In this document: piece by piece, positions 27,092 through 48,260 of the stretch
How the letters are laid out: every line of letters starts with the position of its first letter
How positions within the stretch are numbered: position 1 is the first letter of the stretch
Source of the DNA: Candidatus Poribacteria bacterium
GTDB taxonomy: Bacteria; Poribacteria; WGA-4E; WGA-3G
Reading direction: 5' to 3'
Length of the DNA stretch: 64,000 nt
NCBI GenBank assembly: GCA_026706025.1
Contig: JAPOZO010000050.1
Location: forward strand, 1 to 64,000
Notes under the pieces: model-generated
Databases searched by the model: none
What the model was told of the DNA's origin: nothing
What the model saw: the letters and a program-made list of their open reading frames with translations, nothing else
Position numbers and translations under genes: made by a program

Positions 27092-28338
27092 TTGTCGGCT
27101 TTCCGACGTTTCATCTCCGCTTTAGTTTTTGCTGCTAAGTCGCCCATCTCATCGCCGAAGAAGTTTTGTGGCCAATTTGTGATGTTTCCATAATCATCAA
27201 CGTTGAGCCTCTCAATTTCAGATACGCCTTCGTTCATTTCGCAAAAATAGAAGGCGGTATCGTCTGCAGAAATCTGTTCCTCAGCGATGCGTCGCATTAA
27301 CCGTATCAGTAGATGCTCGCTGTGGCTCTCAAGGATAATCTGCAGTTTCCGATTTTTGACGACCTCAATGAGCAGATCCGCCAATTCCGACTGGACCTTC
27401 GGATGGAGGTGCGCCTCAGGTTGTTCAAGGATGAGAATGCTGCCCTCTGGCACGTAATAACAGAGTACCAATACCGGCAATACTTGGGAGACACCAAACC
27501 CGACATCGGTGAGTCGGACTTCAGGTCCTCCTTTGTACTTTCGGACAAGGAATTCGTAATTTTTTTCTGAACCAGAAATAGGATTGAGACGATAGGAATC
27601 GATTAAATCCAACCGCTGTAACCATTCTATTATCTGTTTATCAATACCTTGAAGTTTTACCCTCTTTGAAAGGATAGCAGAAGTCATTTCTTTCCCGCTC
27701 TGTCCGGTATCTTTCGGATGATTGCCTTGCCATGCATAACGCGAGTAAGGGGATTCACGAAGTGAACCGAGGTAGCAAATTCGGTGAAATAGATTCTCAA
27801 ACGTATCTTTAAGAGGCTTGAAAGATTCCAGTGGTCCAAAGGGATTAGCGACACCATAGCATCGAAACAATTCTGCGCTTTCGGAATAAAATTCTGATTT
27901 GTATTTGTACCCCGACGATTCCCATTTAATCTCAAAATCCTTCCTACCCATTGTATAACAAAAGCGAGATAACTCCGCATCCCCATATTTGTTAGCAATA
28001 GACATTAAGAAAGAGAGTGAATCGTCCTCAATTGAATCCAATTTCTGTCTTTCAGGCAGCTTCCATGCCACAGCAATATCGAGGCTTAAATCTAAGTTGT
28101 GCTGGTGAATGAGGTCATCAAAACTGCCTAAGTTAACGAGGGAACTATCATCACCGAAATCAATCACGCCATCCCAATCCGGTGGACGTTCCACAGTCTG
28201 CTTCAGCATGAGCAGCGTTTGCAGGATGGTGGTTTTGCCGGAACTGTTCGCGCCAAAGAATCCAGTTAAGGGTGCTATCTGCAATTTACCGGTATCTTTC
28301 CATGATTTGAAATTTTGTACGCGGAGTTCGGTAATCAT
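27088..28338 (-). CDS. OLD/RecF-like AAA ATPase (DUF3696-type)
   Basis: A 416-residue ABC/SMC-like ATPase. Walker A is GFFGANSSGKTTILQTLLML (about 28-45). The signature-like region is LTDVGFGVSQVLPVLV. Walker B is in ILILEQPEAHLHPKVQSELADLL, and QIILESHSEHLLIRLMRRI is the switch His region. The C-terminal part (YFCEMNEGVSEIERLNVDDYGNI) matches the DUF3696 tail. No TOPRIM nuclease is fused, unlike OLD proteins. The nuclease function appears to be supplied in trans by the PIN protein. Related two-gene ATPase-effector units serve in phage defence, which is inference here. Confidence 0.85.
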   Translation of the reverse strand: MITELRVQNFKSWKDTGKLQIAPLTGFFGANSSGKTTILQTLLMLKQTVERPPDWDGVIDFGDDSSLVNLGSFDDLIHQHNLDLSLDIAVAWKLPERQKLDSIEDDSLSFLMSIANKYGDAELSRFCYTMGRKDFEIKWESSGYKYKSEFYSESAELFRCYGVANPFGPLESFKPLKDTFENLFHRICYLGSLRESPYSRYAWQGNHPKDTGQSGKEMTSAILSKRVKLQGIDKQIIEWLQRLDLIDSYRLNPISGSEKNYEFLVRKYKGGPEVRLTDVGFGVSQVLPVLVLCYYVPEGSILILEQPEAHLHPKVQSELADLLIEVVKNRKLQIILESHSEHLLIRLMRRIAEEQISADDTAFYFCEMNEGVSEIERLNVDDYGNITNWPQNFFGDEMGDLAAKTKAEMKRRKADK

Positions 28339-39551: not shown

Positions 39552-40661
39552 ATGACAAACCGAAAAATGGAAAAGCAGTTACAACCGAAATCACATAAAA
39601 TAGCGATTCTTGCCGAAGGCTCATTCGGTGTTCTTGAATCAAAAACCGCCACAGTCCTCGTGCGCTATCTCCCTGATAATGTTGTCGCAGTTATTGATAG
39701 TGCCAATGCGGGACGAGATGTCAGCGAAGTTATTGAGATTGGGGAAGGGATTCCGATTGTCCGCTATCTCGCTGAGGCGATGCGATTCAATCCGACGATG
39801 CTTGCTATCGGCATTGCACCACCCGGGGGCGAGTTGCCACATCCTTGGCGCGCGATCCTCCGTGAGGCGATCCAGAACGGCTTGCACGTCATGAGCGGAC
39901 TCCACCAATTCCTGAGCGAAGACACAGAACTGTCCGAATTGGCAGCAGCAAACGATGTGGTTTTATGGGATGCCCGAAAACCGCCTGCCGATTTACCCGT
40001 CGCAACGTGCAAAGCCGATGAAGTTGATGCCACGGTTATTTTGACTGTCGGCTCAGATTGCCGTGTCGGGAAGATGCTATCTGGTATAGAGGTGACCCGT
40101 GCTGCGCGGGAACGTGGTGTGAATGCCGAATTTTGTCCGACGGGACAGAATGGGATTATGGTCTGGGGTTGGGGAATTGCGATCGATGCTGTCGTCTCCG
40201 ATTTTACTGCTGGTGCCGCGGAGGAGATTGTGCTGGAAGGTGCAAAAAATCACGAGCTGCTTATCGTTGAAGGGCAAGGTTCGTTGGTCCATCCGGGGTA
40301 CTCCGGTGTAACGTTAAGTCTACTCCACGGCAGTCTACCGGATGCGATGATCTTTTGTCACCAACCCTCACGGGATACAGTTGCGCGGTATACAGTGCCG
40401 TTGCCATCGTTAACTGAGATGATTGCGCACTATGAGACGTTGGCTGCACCGATAAAACCCGCTAAAGTGATTGGGTTGGCGTTGAATTGCTTTGATTTGT
40501 CCAAGGATGAGGCACGCGAAGCAATTCAACAGGCAGAGGCGGAAACGGGGCTGCCAGCAACAGATGTCGTGCGGTTCGGGGCGGATAAACTCGTTGATGC
40601 GATTCAGAAAGTGCATAGAGAAATGAGGAGAGATTTCAATGAGCGAACCCAAAAAGATTGA
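39552..40661 (+). CDS. DUF1611/DgcN-type P-loop protein
   Basis: A 369-residue protein. The N-terminal Rossmann-like part is KIAILAEGSFGVLESKTATVLVRYLPDNVVAVIDSANAG and GIAPPGGELPHPWRAILREAIQNGLHVMSG. The C-terminal domain has a P-loop-like GSDCRVGKMLSGIEVTRAARERG (about 164-186) and VEGQGSLVHPGYSGVTLSLLHGS. This is the DUF1611 family. Some members (DgcN) are described in D-glutamate metabolism with a partner epimerase, which is not seen here. Its end overlaps the next gene, an ATPase, by 23 bases, so the genes are cotranscribed. There is no obvious functional tie between them. Confidence 0.85.
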   Translation: MTNRKMEKQLQPKSHKIAILAEGSFGVLESKTATVLVRYLPDNVVAVIDSANAGRDVSEVIEIGEGIPIVRYLAEAMRFNPTMLAIGIAPPGGELPHPWRAILREAIQNGLHVMSGLHQFLSEDTELSELAAANDVVLWDARKPPADLPVATCKADEVDATVILTVGSDCRVGKMLSGIEVTRAARERGVNAEFCPTGQNGIMVWGWGIAIDAVVSDFTAGAAEEIVLEGAKNHELLIVEGQGSLVHPGYSGVTLSLLHGSLPDAMIFCHQPSRDTVARYTVPLPSLTEMIAHYETLAAPIKPAKVIGLALNCFDLSKDEAREAIQQAEAETGLPATDVVRFGADKLVDAIQKVHREMRRDFNERTQKD

Positions 40662-42084
40662 AACATTAGAAATGCCCAAGTATCCAAAGGTCAAAATCGC
40701 TGTTAAGAATTTCGGGCCGATTGCAGAAGCCACAATAGACCTCCAACCATTGACAGTATTTGTCGGACCAAGCAACACTGGAAAAACTTACTTTTCTACG
40801 TTAATCTATGCGTTAGACGGCGTTTTTACAGGACACTCAAAATTCCCAGGGCGGTTCAAACGCTTAGGTATTCATGGTTTCAAGGACTTGTTAAATCAAA
40901 ATTGGGATGCGATTCGCTCAATTCTCAAAAAACTAAACACATCTGATCAATCGATTAAGTTTTCAGATTTGCCACCAGAAATTCGTGCCAGTTTAGAGTC
41001 AGACCTCAAGGATCCGGAAAGCACAGCAAACGAGCTCAACCGCTGCTTTGACTTAAATTCAATTACAGAATTGATTCGTTTAAAAAACGGTCAACGCAGT
41101 GAAATGAGCGTCTCTCTGGAGGTCAGGCGGGAAAATCAGCGTCTATGGAATTTCAATATAGAGGGCTGCGGGTCAAATTTTGCGGTACGTGGTTCAGTCA
41201 ACGAGGATTTAATGATTTACGACAAAGACTCGTTGATCTCACATTCACATAAGGACCTTGACATTGATGATTTATTTTTCTGGGCCGCTATTGAATTAGA
41301 CAGACATCGAGAAAAAAGATTCTATCTACCAGCCGCCCGAAGCGGAATTATGCAGAGTCACCGAGTGATAGCCAGTTCACTCGTCGAGCGTGCGACTCGC
41401 GGCGGTCTCACACCATTAGAGGTTCCGACGTTTTCAGGGATTGTCGCAGATTTTATGCAGCAACTTATACTCTACAAAGAATCCGAAGCACCCGACGAAG
41501 GCATAACACAGCTTGCAGGGACCATAGAATCTGGTGTGCTTGACGGTCAGATTCTCATGAAACCTACACCGAGCGGATATCCGGATTTTCTTTTTCGTTC
41601 GCGCGAAATGGGAGAAGATGTGCGTCTTACACGCGCAGCGTCTATGGTATCTGAACTCGCCCCGGTTGTACTTTTTCTCCGCAGTGGCATCCGCCCTGGT
41701 GATATGCTCATCATTGAAGAACCGGAGGCACACTTGCATCCGGGTGCCCAAACTGATATAGCATTAACCCTCGCTGGTTTAGTCCGTGCCGGTGTACGAG
41801 TTGTCGTGACAACTCATAGCGATTGGATACTCAAAGAAATTGCGAATCTAATACGGATAGGGGACCTCAAGAGAAAAGGCGTGCCGCAAGTGAAAAAGAT
41901 GGAATCAATCCATTGGTTACTACCGGAGGAAGTAGGGACATGGTGGTTCCAAAAGGACGGGATCGTGAAACACATTCCTTTTGATCCCACTGAAGGCATA
42001 GAACCAAAAGACTATGAAGACGTAGCATATAAACTCTATGACCGGTCTGTTAACCTCCAAGACTTACTTGAGAAAGCCGGATAG
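40639..42084 (+). CDS. AAA ATPase (OLD/RecF-like) paired with a nuclease-like gene
   Basis: A 481-residue ABC-type ATPase. Walker A is Gly43-PSNTGKT50 in LTVFVGPSNTGKTYF. Residues about 190-230 form a unique middle part. The late RLTRAASMVSELAPVVLFLRSG takes the place of a signature helix. Walker B is DMLIIEEPEAHLHPGAQTDIALTLAG (about 355-378) and VVVTTHSDWILKEIANLI is the switch. GAGG precedes the ATG, which lies inside the DUF1611 gene. There is no TOPRIM domain. The 13-base gap to the next gene, which encodes a PD-(D/E)XK-like protein, makes a two-gene cassette similar in logic to the ATPase-PIN pair at 26585-28338. Confidence 0.83.
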   Translation: MSEPKKIETLEMPKYPKVKIAVKNFGPIAEATIDLQPLTVFVGPSNTGKTYFSTLIYALDGVFTGHSKFPGRFKRLGIHGFKDLLNQNWDAIRSILKKLNTSDQSIKFSDLPPEIRASLESDLKDPESTANELNRCFDLNSITELIRLKNGQRSEMSVSLEVRRENQRLWNFNIEGCGSNFAVRGSVNEDLMIYDKDSLISHSHKDLDIDDLFFWAAIELDRHREKRFYLPAARSGIMQSHRVIASSLVERATRGGLTPLEVPTFSGIVADFMQQLILYKESEAPDEGITQLAGTIESGVLDGQILMKPTPSGYPDFLFRSREMGEDVRLTRAASMVSELAPVVLFLRSGIRPGDMLIIEEPEAHLHPGAQTDIALTLAGLVRAGVRVVVTTHSDWILKEIANLIRIGDLKRKGVPQVKKMESIHWLLPEEVGTWWFQKDGIVKHIPFDPTEGIEPKDYEDVAYKLYDRSVNLQDLLEKAG

Positions 42085-42097
42085 GAGGTAGCAGCGA

Positions 42098-42613
42098 GTG
42101 GGACTAAAAGAGCTTCTCACAGAAATAGAGAAGCAAGTACACGAAGAATGCATTAGCAAATCTTGTAGTGGAGACGGATGTCGTGTATACCTAACCGGCA
42201 CCCCATCTGACCGAGTTATCGTAAACCTTGAATGCGAATTTGAACAGCGGAAAATAAGCACAAAACGATGTGACTATGTTCTCTTCTGTGGCGATGCTTC
42301 TCGAGGTAATTTGGTTGTTGTGCTTATAGAACTCAAAAGTGGAACTTTTAAAACATCAACAGTAGCCGATCAGCTGCAAAGCGGAGCCAACTTCGTCTCA
42401 GAAATGTTTGGAAAGTTACCTAAGGAGGCGAATGCAGCACTAAACACACTCGAAATTACGTGTGTTCCTACTCTGTTCCATGGTAAACGTATTGACAGAT
42501 TTGAACTCCGAGAACTTGAACGCTCTAAAATTCGCTTCCGTAGTCGAAACACAGCAATTAAGAGAAGTAAGGGTGGTCAAGCAAAAAATCTCGCCTCAGT
42601 TTTGAGCGGATAG
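42098..42613 (+). CDS. PD-(D/E)XK-like small nuclease, cassette partner
   Basis: A 171-residue protein. The GTG start is supported by AGGAGG 9 bases upstream. The core shows a restriction-endonuclease-like pattern. CEFEQRKISTKRCDYVLFCGD supplies an Asp. The next strand VVVLIELKSG holds E-x-K (about 75-80). Then come a Thr-rich turn and DQLQSGANFVSEMF with Gln. The C-terminus is very basic (RSKIRFRSRNTAIKRSKGGQAKN), suggesting nucleic-acid contact. The pattern is inferred by eye, so enzyme activity is not certain. Position right after the ATPase gene suggests a joint system, perhaps defence. Confidence 0.65.
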   Translation: MGLKELLTEIEKQVHEECISKSCSGDGCRVYLTGTPSDRVIVNLECEFEQRKISTKRCDYVLFCGDASRGNLVVVLIELKSGTFKTSTVADQLQSGANFVSEMFGKLPKEANAALNTLEITCVPTLFHGKRIDRFELRELERSKIRFRSRNTAIKRSKGGQAKNLASVLSG

Positions 42614-42644: not shown

Positions 42645-43445
42645 ATGACTGATGAAGAAAAATTTCGATTTGACTTGAGCGGATTTCTCGTGCGTCCTGC
42701 GATCCTTGAACGTGATGAAGTGAACGCAATCGTCGATCAGATCGAGAGGATACACCATAGTCCTGAATCTTTACCACCAGAACACCGCGCTGTGCCGGGA
42801 GGTCCAGCAAGTGTCCTGATTGACCATCCGAAGGTCCTTGATGTACTGCACGAAATCATCGGACCCGATGTTCGGTTAGAGAACTGTTCCTCTGTCTGGC
42901 GAGAAAAAGGGCAGGAACATGGTGGACTTCACGGTGGTGGACCGCAACAAGGGGATCCAATTTTCGGGTACCGTGTCAATAATGGACGGATTCACGCGGG
43001 GATGGTGCGTGTCGTCTTTGAACTCACAGATGTCTCCAAAAACGATGGCGCGACACACTTTATCGCGGGCAGTCACAAGTCTAACTTCCCGATGCACGCT
43101 GAACACATGTCGTTAGAGGCAGGGAAACGGAGTCCGTTTCTGATGTCATACGAATGTCCGGCTGGCAGTGCGATTTTCTTTACGGAAAACCTGTGTCATG
43201 CGGGTCCTGTCTGGCAACGGGAGGCACCGCGCGTGGCAGTGCTGAACGCTTACGCGCATCTCGCAACGCATTGGCATCGGCTGAAGACTCCGCCCGAAGT
43301 ACTCGCCGCCTTACCGCGTGAAAAGCAGGCATACTTCCGTGAACCATGGGTTGCCGATTTCCGTACGAGTCCAGCAACAATAAACACGATTGAACGATTT
43401 ATTGACAACGACGAACCACCTGTTAACACCGATACTAAACCGTGA
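42645..43445 (+). CDS. PhyH-family protein with HxG iron motif, copy 4
   Basis: A 266-residue PhyH-superfamily protein. The fold is clear: VVFELTDVSKNDGATHFIAGSHKSNF, then PAGSAIFFTENLCHAGPVWQREAPRVAVLNAY with the distal His185 and Arg. At the site of the canonical His-x-Asp it has His96-Gly-Gly98 (GGLHGGGPQQG), so the carboxylate iron ligand is missing. This resembles the HxG of the halogenase WelO5 and parallels copy 2 (HxA). Alternatively another residue may bind iron, or the protein may be inactive. It lies 31 bases after the ATPase-nuclease cassette. Confidence 0.88.
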   Translation: MTDEEKFRFDLSGFLVRPAILERDEVNAIVDQIERIHHSPESLPPEHRAVPGGPASVLIDHPKVLDVLHEIIGPDVRLENCSSVWREKGQEHGGLHGGGPQQGDPIFGYRVNNGRIHAGMVRVVFELTDVSKNDGATHFIAGSHKSNFPMHAEHMSLEAGKRSPFLMSYECPAGSAIFFTENLCHAGPVWQREAPRVAVLNAYAHLATHWHRLKTPPEVLAALPREKQAYFREPWVADFRTSPATINTIERFIDNDEPPVNTDTKP

Positions 43446-45128: not shown

Positions 45129-48100
45129 ATGAACACTTGGCACGGCTTAAATGAGAAACAGATAGAAGCAGTAATACATAAAGACGGTCCCCTTCTCGTT
45201 ATCGCAGGTCCCGGTACTGGAAAAACAAAAGTCATCACACACCGCATTGAGCATCTGATCCGCGAACACAATATCAGACCTGAGAAGATTCTGGCGATTA
45301 CGTTTACGAATAAAGCAGCGGAAGAGATGCAGGAACGCATCAACACCGAGATCGGCGAACCGCACGGATCCAGCGTTAAGGCTTGCACCTTCCATGCATT
45401 TTGTGTCAAAGTGCTAAGGAAACACGCGCTGAAGATTGGATTGAGCGAGAATTTCACCATCTTTGACCAAGAACTCCAAGACGAGATTTTAACAGAAAGC
45501 GTCCGAGAACTGAGTCTCAACGCTGACGACTACCCGCCATGGCTGCTACGAAACATTATCAGCGATGCTAAATGCACACTCCAGGACCCAGTTGAAGCAG
45601 TAGACAACACAGAGATTTACGACCCAGAGACGCTCGAAAATATCCGAAATATACTGCAAACCTATCAGCACAAACTCACTGAATACGATGCCCTCGATTT
45701 TGATGACCTTCTGCTGAAAACCGTCGAACTCTTAGGCGTAAAAGAAGTAAAAGAAGCCTATCATAAGGAAATTTCCTATATCCTCGTTGACGAATTTCAC
45801 GATGTGAATCGCGTGCAGTACTATCTACTCCAACTGCTCTGTGCCGCACCGGCGCGTAATCTCATGGTCGTCGCCGATGAAGACCAGTCTATCTATAGTT
45901 GGCGTGGGTCAAACCCAGAGTATATTGACAATTTTAGAACGGATTTCGATCCGCGAACCGTCGAACTGGATGATCATTACAGGTGTAGTGAGAAAATCTT
46001 ACGCGCTGCAGAAGAAGTTATCTCCAGAAACCCGGAGCGACAGAAACAGCACACCCTCAGAACCCACAAAGATGCAGGACGCGACATTTTTCATTATACT
46101 TTTGACACACCGATAGCGGAAGCACTTGGCATCATTCATGTTATTGAGAATTTGGTAAAGCAGCGTGGCTATTCCTATCGCGATATTGCGGTTTTTTACC
46201 GGACACACAAACTCGCTGATGTTTTGGCGGAGCAGCTGCTGCGCAAAGACATCAAATTCCAACGGATTCTACCGACAAATTCCTTTAGTGAAGGAAACAG
46301 CAAGGCGATTCTGGCATATCTCCGTCTCATCCAGTGGCAACTTCCGCAGGATTTGGAACAGGCAATCAATTTCCCTGAGACCTGTATTGACGATTTGACA
46401 TGGGTGCGTCTCAAGTGGCTCGCGCAGCGTGAACATATTGCGTTTATAGAGCTTTTGAGAAATATTGAGGCATACGCAGAAGATGTCGGTCCCTTGACCC
46501 GTCGAAACGTCCGCCAGTTCTGGACGCAACTTGAGAACCTGTCAACCGGCATCCAAGACGCGAAGATTGATAAAATCATTCAGACCCTCTTTGACGCTTT
46601 GGAACGCTCTCGCTCGCCTTACCGCGCCGAAGAGCTGGAAGTTATTGAGAAACAGCCTGAGCTGCCGAACCTTGTGACCGCGCAGGATGTCCTTTATAGT
46701 GCCCTTGACCTTGATGAACCCATCCAGATTACTGCCTGCCACGGCATCGACGAGTATTGCGCGGCGCATATCATTCATCAGACGCTTGAAACGTATCTCA
46801 ACCAGCATGCACAACTCCAATTCTTACCACCTAACGTAAATAGACCGCCGCAGCTGGACAACGGTGTCCATCTCCTCATTGGTGATTTTGAAGAACTTGG
46901 AAGAAAAGCACGGGACACGCGGATTATTCTCATCGGAACCCCAGCAGAAATGGCAGATAGCGATGTAATTCACCTCGAAACCAAAGGTGTTCGGAGCATC
47001 GCGGCACTCAAACTTTGCCAACGCCTTATTAATCGCTTTGAAAATCCAAATATGGCAGATATGGTTGTCTATGATCTGGAGACAACGGGTATCAACCCGA
47101 AAACAGCAGAAATTGTTGAGATCGCCGCGCACCGTCTCAGCGTAATCGGAGATGAAGTGGAAAGGTACCACTGCTTGGTAAAACCCCCCGGCGGGCTTAT
47201 CCCTCGTGCAGCCACACGCATTCACCAGATTGATGCAGAGACCGTCAAAAACGCACCCGGCATTGAGATGGTATTGCCCGAATTTTCTGGATTTATCCAA
47301 GATCGGATTTTGATTGGGCATAATGTCGCGGAATACGATAATCCAATTCTTGCGCGAGACCTCAGCAGGTACTTGAAAATAGGATTATCGGCACCGCATT
47401 ACGATACCCTTACCACCGCGCGTCGGCTTTTCCCGCGACAACGGTGTAGCATCGGCGCGCTTGCTGAAAAATTTGGCATTGAACATGATCGTCTACACGG
47501 TGCCTTAGAGGATGTTAGGGTCAATAGAGAAATTTTCAAAGAGCTCATCAAAATCGATGCTTACAAACGGGAAGTGAAATCCCTCACCGAACTTCTTCCG
47601 CTTGTGGGGCTTGGCATCCTCGCTAAAACGGAGGCATCGGAACAAGCAGTAGTAGCTACAAGAGATACCTTAACTGAAACCGATGTACTCCTTAACGCTG
47701 CGAAGCGTTTTGTCCAGACACACAACGCTGTTCCGCCGGATCGTCTACCGCTTGAAGCAGCAGAAGCAGCAGAAGCAACAGCATACATAGAAGAACTACG
47801 AGATACCGCTGTCCCAGAATTCCGAGAAGATATTGAATGGCGGCAACGCCATATTCAGTTTATGAACGCTGTCGTCCATTTTGAATCCGTGAACGACGAG
47901 CATCAGCTCACCAACTTCTTGGACTATCAGAAGTTACTTACCAATATCGATGAGCTTGACGATAAGACCGAGCAATTGACCTTAATGACGTTACACGCAG
48001 CGAAAGGCACAGAATTTCCGGTCGTTATCATTCTCGGCATGGAGGAGGGAAGCTTCCCGATGTGGCGGCAGAACATCACAGAAGCAGAAATTGAGGAGGA

Positions 48101-48260
48101 GCGGCGTCTCTTCTATGTCGGTATGACCCGCGCGCAAAACCAACTCTATCTGTCGTCTACCACCTATCGCACAGGTGATCGGGATCGCGCTGCATCTATG
48201 TTCGTTCGTGAAGTGCCGTCTAACTACGTGATCAAATGGCCTCAGCCGAGACATGCGTAA
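45129..48260 (+). CDS. UvrD/Rep-type helicase with embedded DEDDh exonuclease
   Basis: A 1043-residue fusion. The N-terminal SF1 helicase part has Walker A Gly27-PGTGKT33, ITFTNKAAEEM, the VDEFHDVNRVQ Walker B region, VVADEDQSIYSWRG and LDDHYRCSEKIL (motif IV). The end (about 950-1010) has TLMTLHAAKGTEFPVVIILGMEEGSFP (motif V) and EERRLFYVGMTRAQNQLYL (motif VI). Between them lies a DnaQ-like 3'-5' exonuclease with all DEDDh elements: Asp649-Leu-Glu651 in VVYDLETTG, then GHNVAEYDNPIL, then HGALEDVRV (about 640-815). It sits where the 2B domain of UvrD would be. A role in DNA repair or defence is inferred. Confidence 0.92.
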   Translation: MNTWHGLNEKQIEAVIHKDGPLLVIAGPGTGKTKVITHRIEHLIREHNIRPEKILAITFTNKAAEEMQERINTEIGEPHGSSVKACTFHAFCVKVLRKHALKIGLSENFTIFDQELQDEILTESVRELSLNADDYPPWLLRNIISDAKCTLQDPVEAVDNTEIYDPETLENIRNILQTYQHKLTEYDALDFDDLLLKTVELLGVKEVKEAYHKEISYILVDEFHDVNRVQYYLLQLLCAAPARNLMVVADEDQSIYSWRGSNPEYIDNFRTDFDPRTVELDDHYRCSEKILRAAEEVISRNPERQKQHTLRTHKDAGRDIFHYTFDTPIAEALGIIHVIENLVKQRGYSYRDIAVFYRTHKLADVLAEQLLRKDIKFQRILPTNSFSEGNSKAILAYLRLIQWQLPQDLEQAINFPETCIDDLTWVRLKWLAQREHIAFIELLRNIEAYAEDVGPLTRRNVRQFWTQLENLSTGIQDAKIDKIIQTLFDALERSRSPYRAEELEVIEKQPELPNLVTAQDVLYSALDLDEPIQITACHGIDEYCAAHIIHQTLETYLNQHAQLQFLPPNVNRPPQLDNGVHLLIGDFEELGRKARDTRIILIGTPAEMADSDVIHLETKGVRSIAALKLCQRLINRFENPNMADMVVYDLETTGINPKTAEIVEIAAHRLSVIGDEVERYHCLVKPPGGLIPRAATRIHQIDAETVKNAPGIEMVLPEFSGFIQDRILIGHNVAEYDNPILARDLSRYLKIGLSAPHYDTLTTARRLFPRQRCSIGALAEKFGIEHDRLHGALEDVRVNREIFKELIKIDAYKREVKSLTELLPLVGLGILAKTEASEQAVVATRDTLTETDVLLNAAKRFVQTHNAVPPDRLPLEAAEAAEATAYIEELRDTAVPEFREDIEWRQRHIQFMNAVVHFESVNDEHQLTNFLDYQKLLTNIDELDDKTEQLTLMTLHAAKGTEFPVVIILGMEEGSFPMWRQNITEAEIEEERRLFYVGMTRAQNQLYLSSTTYRTGDRDRAASMFVREVPSNYVIKWPQPRHA

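Follow-up and report, generated by a model that had tools for sequence, protein, structure and literature searches.

An ATPase gene in the window, the 64,000-nucleotide stretch of DNA analysed here, carries an internal insert that has been exchanged between species within a fixed chromosomal slot while the rest of the gene has stayed put. The gene is followed directly by a small gene, B, and together they probably constitute a two-gene anti-phage system of a sponge-type Poribacterium, consisting of an OLD-like ABC ATPase and a predicted PD-(D/E)XK nuclease. We favour this reading because of the near-obligate pairing of the two genes, their homology to PD-T4-4 and PDC-M47, the conservation of catalytic-type residues, the polymorphism of the slot and the exchange of the insert. 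The positions of the features are collected in Table 1.

Table 1. Features of the ATPase-B locus and its borders, in window positions
Feature	Position	Strand	Remarks and basis
DUF1611 gene, left slot border	39552..40661	+	last 23 bases overlap the ATPase gene by junction
OLD-like ABC ATPase, proposed sensor and regulator	40639..42084	+	481 aa; AAA_15, PADLOC matches, motif conservation
Hypervariable, horizontally exchanged ATPase insert, proposed recognition module	40825..41316	+	residues 63-226; identity classes, AU tests, fourfold sites
ATPase Walker B / D-loop EEPEAHLHP	41716..41742	+	
ATPase-B gap of 13 bases with Shine-Dalgarno-like AGGAGGT	42085..42097	+	
B, small basic PD-(D/E)XK-like nuclease, proposed effector	42098..42613	+	171 aa; motif and profile matches
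B codon 159	42572..42574	+	Gly in window copy; Cys in 83/84 homologues with a residue there
PhyH (phytanoyl-CoA dioxygenase-like) gene, right slot border	42645..43445	+	

The ATPase and the small protein B

A sequence-only reading of this DNA had described an ABC-type ATPase with Walker A at residues 43-50 and an EEPEAHLHP motif, and both the coordinates and the motifs were confirmed (Walker A, GPSNTGKT; EEPEAHLHP, residues 360-368). Pfam matched AAA_15 at 3.8e-22 and also AAA_21. Among 94 homologues, Walker A K49, R234, E360/E361 and H393 were near-invariant, with K49, E360, E361 and H393 conserved at 98-100%, and by these elements (Walker A, the Walker B EE and the H-loop His) the window ATPase is classed among the OLD-like ABC ATPases. 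Assignment to the OLD-family nucleases, class 1 or 2, was rejected, as these require an ABC ATPase fused to TOPRIM; Pfam found no TOPRIM in the window ATPase, which ends at residue 481, in agreement with the earlier statement that none is fused. An AlphaFold model of the ATPase built from six close sequences was too weak to use.

The small basic protein that had been read 13 bases after the ATPase, with an Asp/E-x-K/Gln pattern, was recovered with the signature D59...E78-x-K80...Q92, a GTG start and a pI of 9.0. Across 90 B sequences, E78 and K80 were near-invariant and position 59 was Asp or Glu, while in a diverse B set E78 and K80 were invariant and D59 and Q92 conserved; the D...(E/D)xK motif of PD-(D/E)XK proteins (D59, as D or E, with E78 and K80) was present in nearly all intact members. 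The Pfam match to HSDR_N was weak and sub-threshold (0.011), and a profile comparison of B with HSDR_N was not significant (probability 4.9), although the E-x-K region did align. In the AlphaFold model of B, which is of low confidence (pLDDT 52), the elements follow the order expected for the alpha-beta-beta-beta-alpha-beta core of PD-(D/E)XK, placing D59 in strand two and E78-x-K80 where strand three ends; Foldseek with this model returned no significant match. The assignment of B as a PD-(D/E)XK-like, putative nuclease rests on the motif and profile evidence. Cys28, Cys58 and Cys159 were also near-invariant in the 90 B sequences and may have a metal-binding or structural role.

Pairing and chromosomal position

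Profiles of the ATPase and of B were searched over 85 Poribacteria genomes, mostly metagenome-assembled genomes (MAGs), with neighbouring genes called by a simple longest-ORF rule; the window genome is itself a MAG, with an assembly of 6.27 Mb in 103 contigs. The searches gave 142 ATPase matches in 62 genomes and 137 B matches in 60, with one to about seven copies per genome, nearly all in a single gene order. An ATPase lay directly upstream of B on the same strand in 133 of the 137 cases, far beyond chance, so the pair is near-obligate. To judge from the tables, the four B genes without an ATPase lie at contig edges or are broken or fragmentary, and so do not amount to the free-standing B homologues that the earlier reading had named as a refutation. 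This pairing, together with homology to known two-gene defence pairs, upholds the earlier proposal of a split OLD-like ATPase and PD-(D/E)XK-like protein. Nine ATPases had no detected B, and in one of these, L076, an intact ATPase stands beside a B with an internal deletion; B may be dispensable in such cases, or the locus may be decaying.

At the window slot, 13 genomes of the genus carry the pair between DUF1611 and PhyH, and in 20 others the same two genes are adjacent without it, usually 10-50 bases apart. A further genome of the family, G028, has the pair after DUF1611 with no PhyH, and L069, the nearest relative of the window genome, has a pair-less site. When mapped on the tree of the flanking genes, presence of the pair required about 11 changes, against 10.4 with shuffled labels. 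The pair has thus been gained and lost at the DUF1611-PhyH slot, where it is a presence/absence polymorphism. The cassette has a G+C content of 43-45%, compared with 52% for the genes on either side. Neither a target duplication nor a mobile-element gene was seen at the slot borders, and the search for viral, plasmid or phage relatives of the pair found none.

Co-transcription with DUF1611 through a 23-base overlap had been suggested for the window pair. The overlap is present, with DUF1611 ending at 40661, but it arises when the junction has eliminated the stop of DUF1611, which is the case in few genomes; most occupied genomes keep that stop ahead of the ATPase, and some have a FAIM1-like ORF in between, so conserved co-transcription by this route was rejected. 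This small ORF of ~82 aa (Pfam FAIM1, 4.6e-8) lies in the DUF1611-PhyH gap in L073, L079, L081 and L084 and ahead of the ATPase in L070 and L072, and so occurs in the slot with or without the pair.

Other copies of the pair are found in a small number of additional fixed slots, whose neighbours are conserved, and the ATPase core is 76% identical within a slot compared with 60% between slots. The upstream gene was on the same strand as the pair in 72 of 77 cases. In the other slots (L109-L188), the gene that follows the pair has the opposite orientation in 61 of 78 cases; pairs there therefore tend to lie at a host gene's 3' end, with a convergent gene beyond them. A conserved gene order with varied neighbours near defence islands had been anticipated for the pair; the order is kept, but the window copy is in one fixed slot, with DUF1611, AP_endonuc_2 and PhyH genes as neighbours and no defence genes or island. 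Among sister copies, a minority adjoin restriction-modification or Thoeris-like genes. Neighbours recorded for a few copies are Type IIG restriction enzymes, a methylase of Type III, a ThsB-like TIR protein and a UvrD helicase matching NERD. In L175 (1392-10190), a sister pair forms a defence cluster with genes for a Type III methylase, a ThsB-like TIR protein and a UvrD helicase that has a NERD+UvrD match.

Exchange of the ATPase insert

Outside the insert, alleles of the window slot are 80-95% identical, while residues 63-226 fall into discrete classes of 26-30%, about 40-60% and 86-96% identity. Mean identity among slot alleles was 81% for the N-terminus, 78% for residues 227-320, 85% for the C-terminus and 70% for B. 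Over allele pairs, the identity of B was correlated with that of the ATPase C-terminus (r 0.70) and not with that of the insert (r 0.10). AU tests pointed the same way: the insert class was rejected as a clade on C-terminus and B data (p 1e-75), and insert data rejected the groupings L087+L091 (p 3e-4) and L072+L074 (p 2e-7), these p-values being descriptive because the groups were chosen after the identities were seen. The B proteins of these two groupings are 97% (L087/L091) and 92% (L072/L074) identical, whereas the inserts of L087 and L091, which are sister genomes, share 51% identity.

The clearest evidence came from fourfold-degenerate sites, which are close to neutral and were compared in six alleles, from six species, that carry the insert class of the window. 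Identity at these sites was 0.91 in the insert, compared with 0.54 in the C-terminus, 0.63 in residues 227-320, 0.60 in B and 0.53-0.60 in the flanking AP_endonuc_2, DUF1611 and PhyH genes; residues 1-62, at 0.75, were partly carried along with the insert. An identity of 0.91 in the insert against 0.53-0.75 elsewhere is expected from recent transfer of the segment and is not expected from selection at the protein level. The breakpoints of the exchanges lie at about residues 45-60 and 240-275. A binning artefact is unlikely to account for the pattern, because G082 and G083, two of the genomes with the slot, are each assembled as a single contig. Slots S2 and S3 show exchange of the insert as well (for example L110/L119, 0.91 vs 0.36, p 1e-9), and between different slots no clear case of exchange was found. 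A search of open-access literature yielded no description of a hypervariable swapped sensor segment in the OLD-like ATPase family.

Relation to known defence systems

With the PADLOC models, the window ATPase matched PD-T4-4_A at 4e-36 and PDC-M47A at 1.3e-27, with a best stretch of residues 329-409 only, and window B matched PDC-M47B at 4.5e-6 over residues 23-100 and PD-T4-4_B at 3.5e-5. PD-T4-4_A was matched by 25 of 25 ATPases and PD-T4-4_B by only a few B proteins, the matches of the window pair to both being partial. Canonical PDC-M47 pairs, in contrast, match over their full length (M47A 3.7e-181 for copy L190; M47B 5e-59), and the genome of the window pair holds a canonical PDC-M47B of its own (G000:C24:48210-48761; full length, about 1e-54). 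Because canonical full-length pairs occur separately in the same genomes, and the matches of the window ATPase and B are only partial, membership in PDC-M47 was rejected, and the window pair is placed in a sister family of PDC-M47 and probably of PD-T4-4 and WonAB. In hhalign, the window ATPase aligned with PDC-M47A at a probability of 99.6 and window B with canonical PDC-M47B at 94.7 (E 6e-8), with D59, E78, K80 and Q92 in register.

PDC-M47, a PADLOC phage-defence candidate, has the same order of an ATPase and then a small PD-(D/E)XK-like protein, both homologous to those of the window, and the canonical pairs sampled in Poribacteria adjoin a PhyH dioxygenase gene as the window pair does (L189-L196; G000:C24:48210-48761). 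Canonical M47A also shows hypervariability of the insert like that of the window family, with insert identities of 28-74% compared with 78-90% in the C-terminus. The two-gene PD-T4-4 of E. coli likewise joins a PF13175-type ATPase to a PD-(D/E)XK protein (PMC9519451, PMC10952713); it is distant from the window pair and comes from an E. coli ICE-like element, whereas the window pair is in a fixed chromosomal slot, and its insert is not comparable with that of the window ATPase.

By their published description, WonAB of Vibrio cholerae and the 'OLD-ABC ATPase + novel REase' operon resemble the window pair in gene organisation, in the motifs of the ATPase, in having an ExK nuclease and in the sensor-effector logic proposed (PMC12137116). 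WonAB is on a prophage; it defends against phage by abortive infection after phage replication begins, phage DNA replication starting normally and the DNA not being simply degraded, and its authors found no phage escape mutants (PMC12137116). Defence requires WonA K34, R182, E300 and H333 and WonB K71 (PMC12137116), for which K49, R234, E361 and H393 of the window ATPase and K80 of B are plausible equivalents, by motif and not by alignment. In the modelled complex WonB is docked on C-terminal extensions of WonA, and WonAB-related operons differ in the 'Insert 1/2' regions of the ATPase (PMC12137116). Classical OLD, Gabija GajA, PARIS AriA and Septu-retron PtuA share the OLD-like ABC ATPase core, and in the region of its Walker B the window ATPase showed weak sequence similarity to 6p74 (OLD) and to PtuA structures. 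Unlike the window ATPase, OLD and GajA have a TOPRIM nuclease fused to them, and the partners of AriA and PtuA differ from B.

Proposed mechanism and alternatives

We propose that two ATPase protomers would close upon ATP and that the insert, which separates Walker A from the conserved YLPAARSG segment, would sense a phage-derived trigger. The activated ATPase would then license B, docked close to its C-terminal end, to cleave nucleic acid and halt the infection, the infected cell probably being sacrificed. The pair would act from its fixed slots, at the window slot downstream of DUF1611 and probably read from the DUF1611 operon. Specificity would be renewed by recombinational exchange of the insert, the ATPase core, the C-terminus and B evolving apart from it. 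This arrangement of sensor, core, dock and effector combines the WonAB mechanism with the pattern of insert exchange, and that B tracks the C-terminus and not the insert is as expected if the C-terminus docks B.

In the HsdS proteins of restriction-modification systems, target-recognition domains are swapped while the frame around them and the locus stay constant. The exchange found here resembles this in moving a putative recognition segment within a conserved frame at one site, but the segment belongs to an ABC ATPase whose partner is a small nuclease, with no methylase. The likeness lends itself to a modification-dependent or other DNA-targeting restriction system, in which the insert would read some feature of the DNA, for instance a modified base or a structure, and incoming DNA would be cleaved by B with no dormancy; some copies of the pair do have Type IIG and Type III methylase genes next to them. 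We nevertheless consider this unlikely, as the window slot has no methylase, Pfam matched no known DNA-reading domain in the insert, and WonAB lets phage DNA replication start normally and does not simply degrade the DNA (PMC12137116). Less likely again is a toxin-antitoxin or addiction module, in which the ATPase would restrain a toxic nuclease and cells losing the pair would die, with phage defence secondary or absent. Pfam AAA_21 takes in putative AbiEii-type toxins, the genes overlap or are closely spaced, there are several copies per genome with gain and loss at the slot, and inactivation of the WonA ATPase leads to loss of WonB (PMC12137116). Addiction, however, offers no reason to swap one internal ATPase segment while sparing the nuclease and its contact region; in L076 it is the ATPase, the partner expected as antidote, that stays intact after deletion in B, and the common pair-less sister sites argue that loss is tolerated. 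That the pair is a host-metabolism or repair accessory of a DUF1611-PhyH operon, with no defence role, agrees with its fixed position amid metabolic genes, on the same strand and probably co-transcribed, but appears very improbable given its sporadic, near-random occurrence among sister genomes on the flank tree, its relatives in several unrelated slots and the very fast exchange of one segment.

More generally, OLD-like ATPase-nuclease pairs could be modular immune receptors in which the insert after Walker A is an interchangeable recognition cassette, passed between species by recombination within fixed slots, so that each slot would hold a set of alleles differing in specificity around a single conserved engine. 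We consider the case for this about evenly balanced; the rule would also cover PDC-M47 and perhaps WonAB and PD-T4-4. Natural recombinants that differ almost solely in one segment point to that segment as the recognition module and are ready-made chimeras, so that the question of sensing reduces to a swap experiment. Fixed slots with present and absent alleles show that turnover of such systems is possible away from mobile elements and defence islands, and pairs in non-island slots would escape island-based searches.

Other genes near the slot

A second OLD/AAA-type ATPase gene (27136-28338, minus strand; NsnB model, E 4e-63) lies about 12 kb from the pair in the window. Several related genomes have similar ATPases close to the slot of the pair, and many more loci in each genome are matched by the NsnB model. 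On the other side, at 45129-48260 on the plus strand, is a gene for a 1043-aa UvrD-like helicase with an apparent inserted DnaQ-like exonuclease segment (DLETTGINPKTAEIVEIAAHRL), and a helicase of this kind is conserved near the slot in other genomes.
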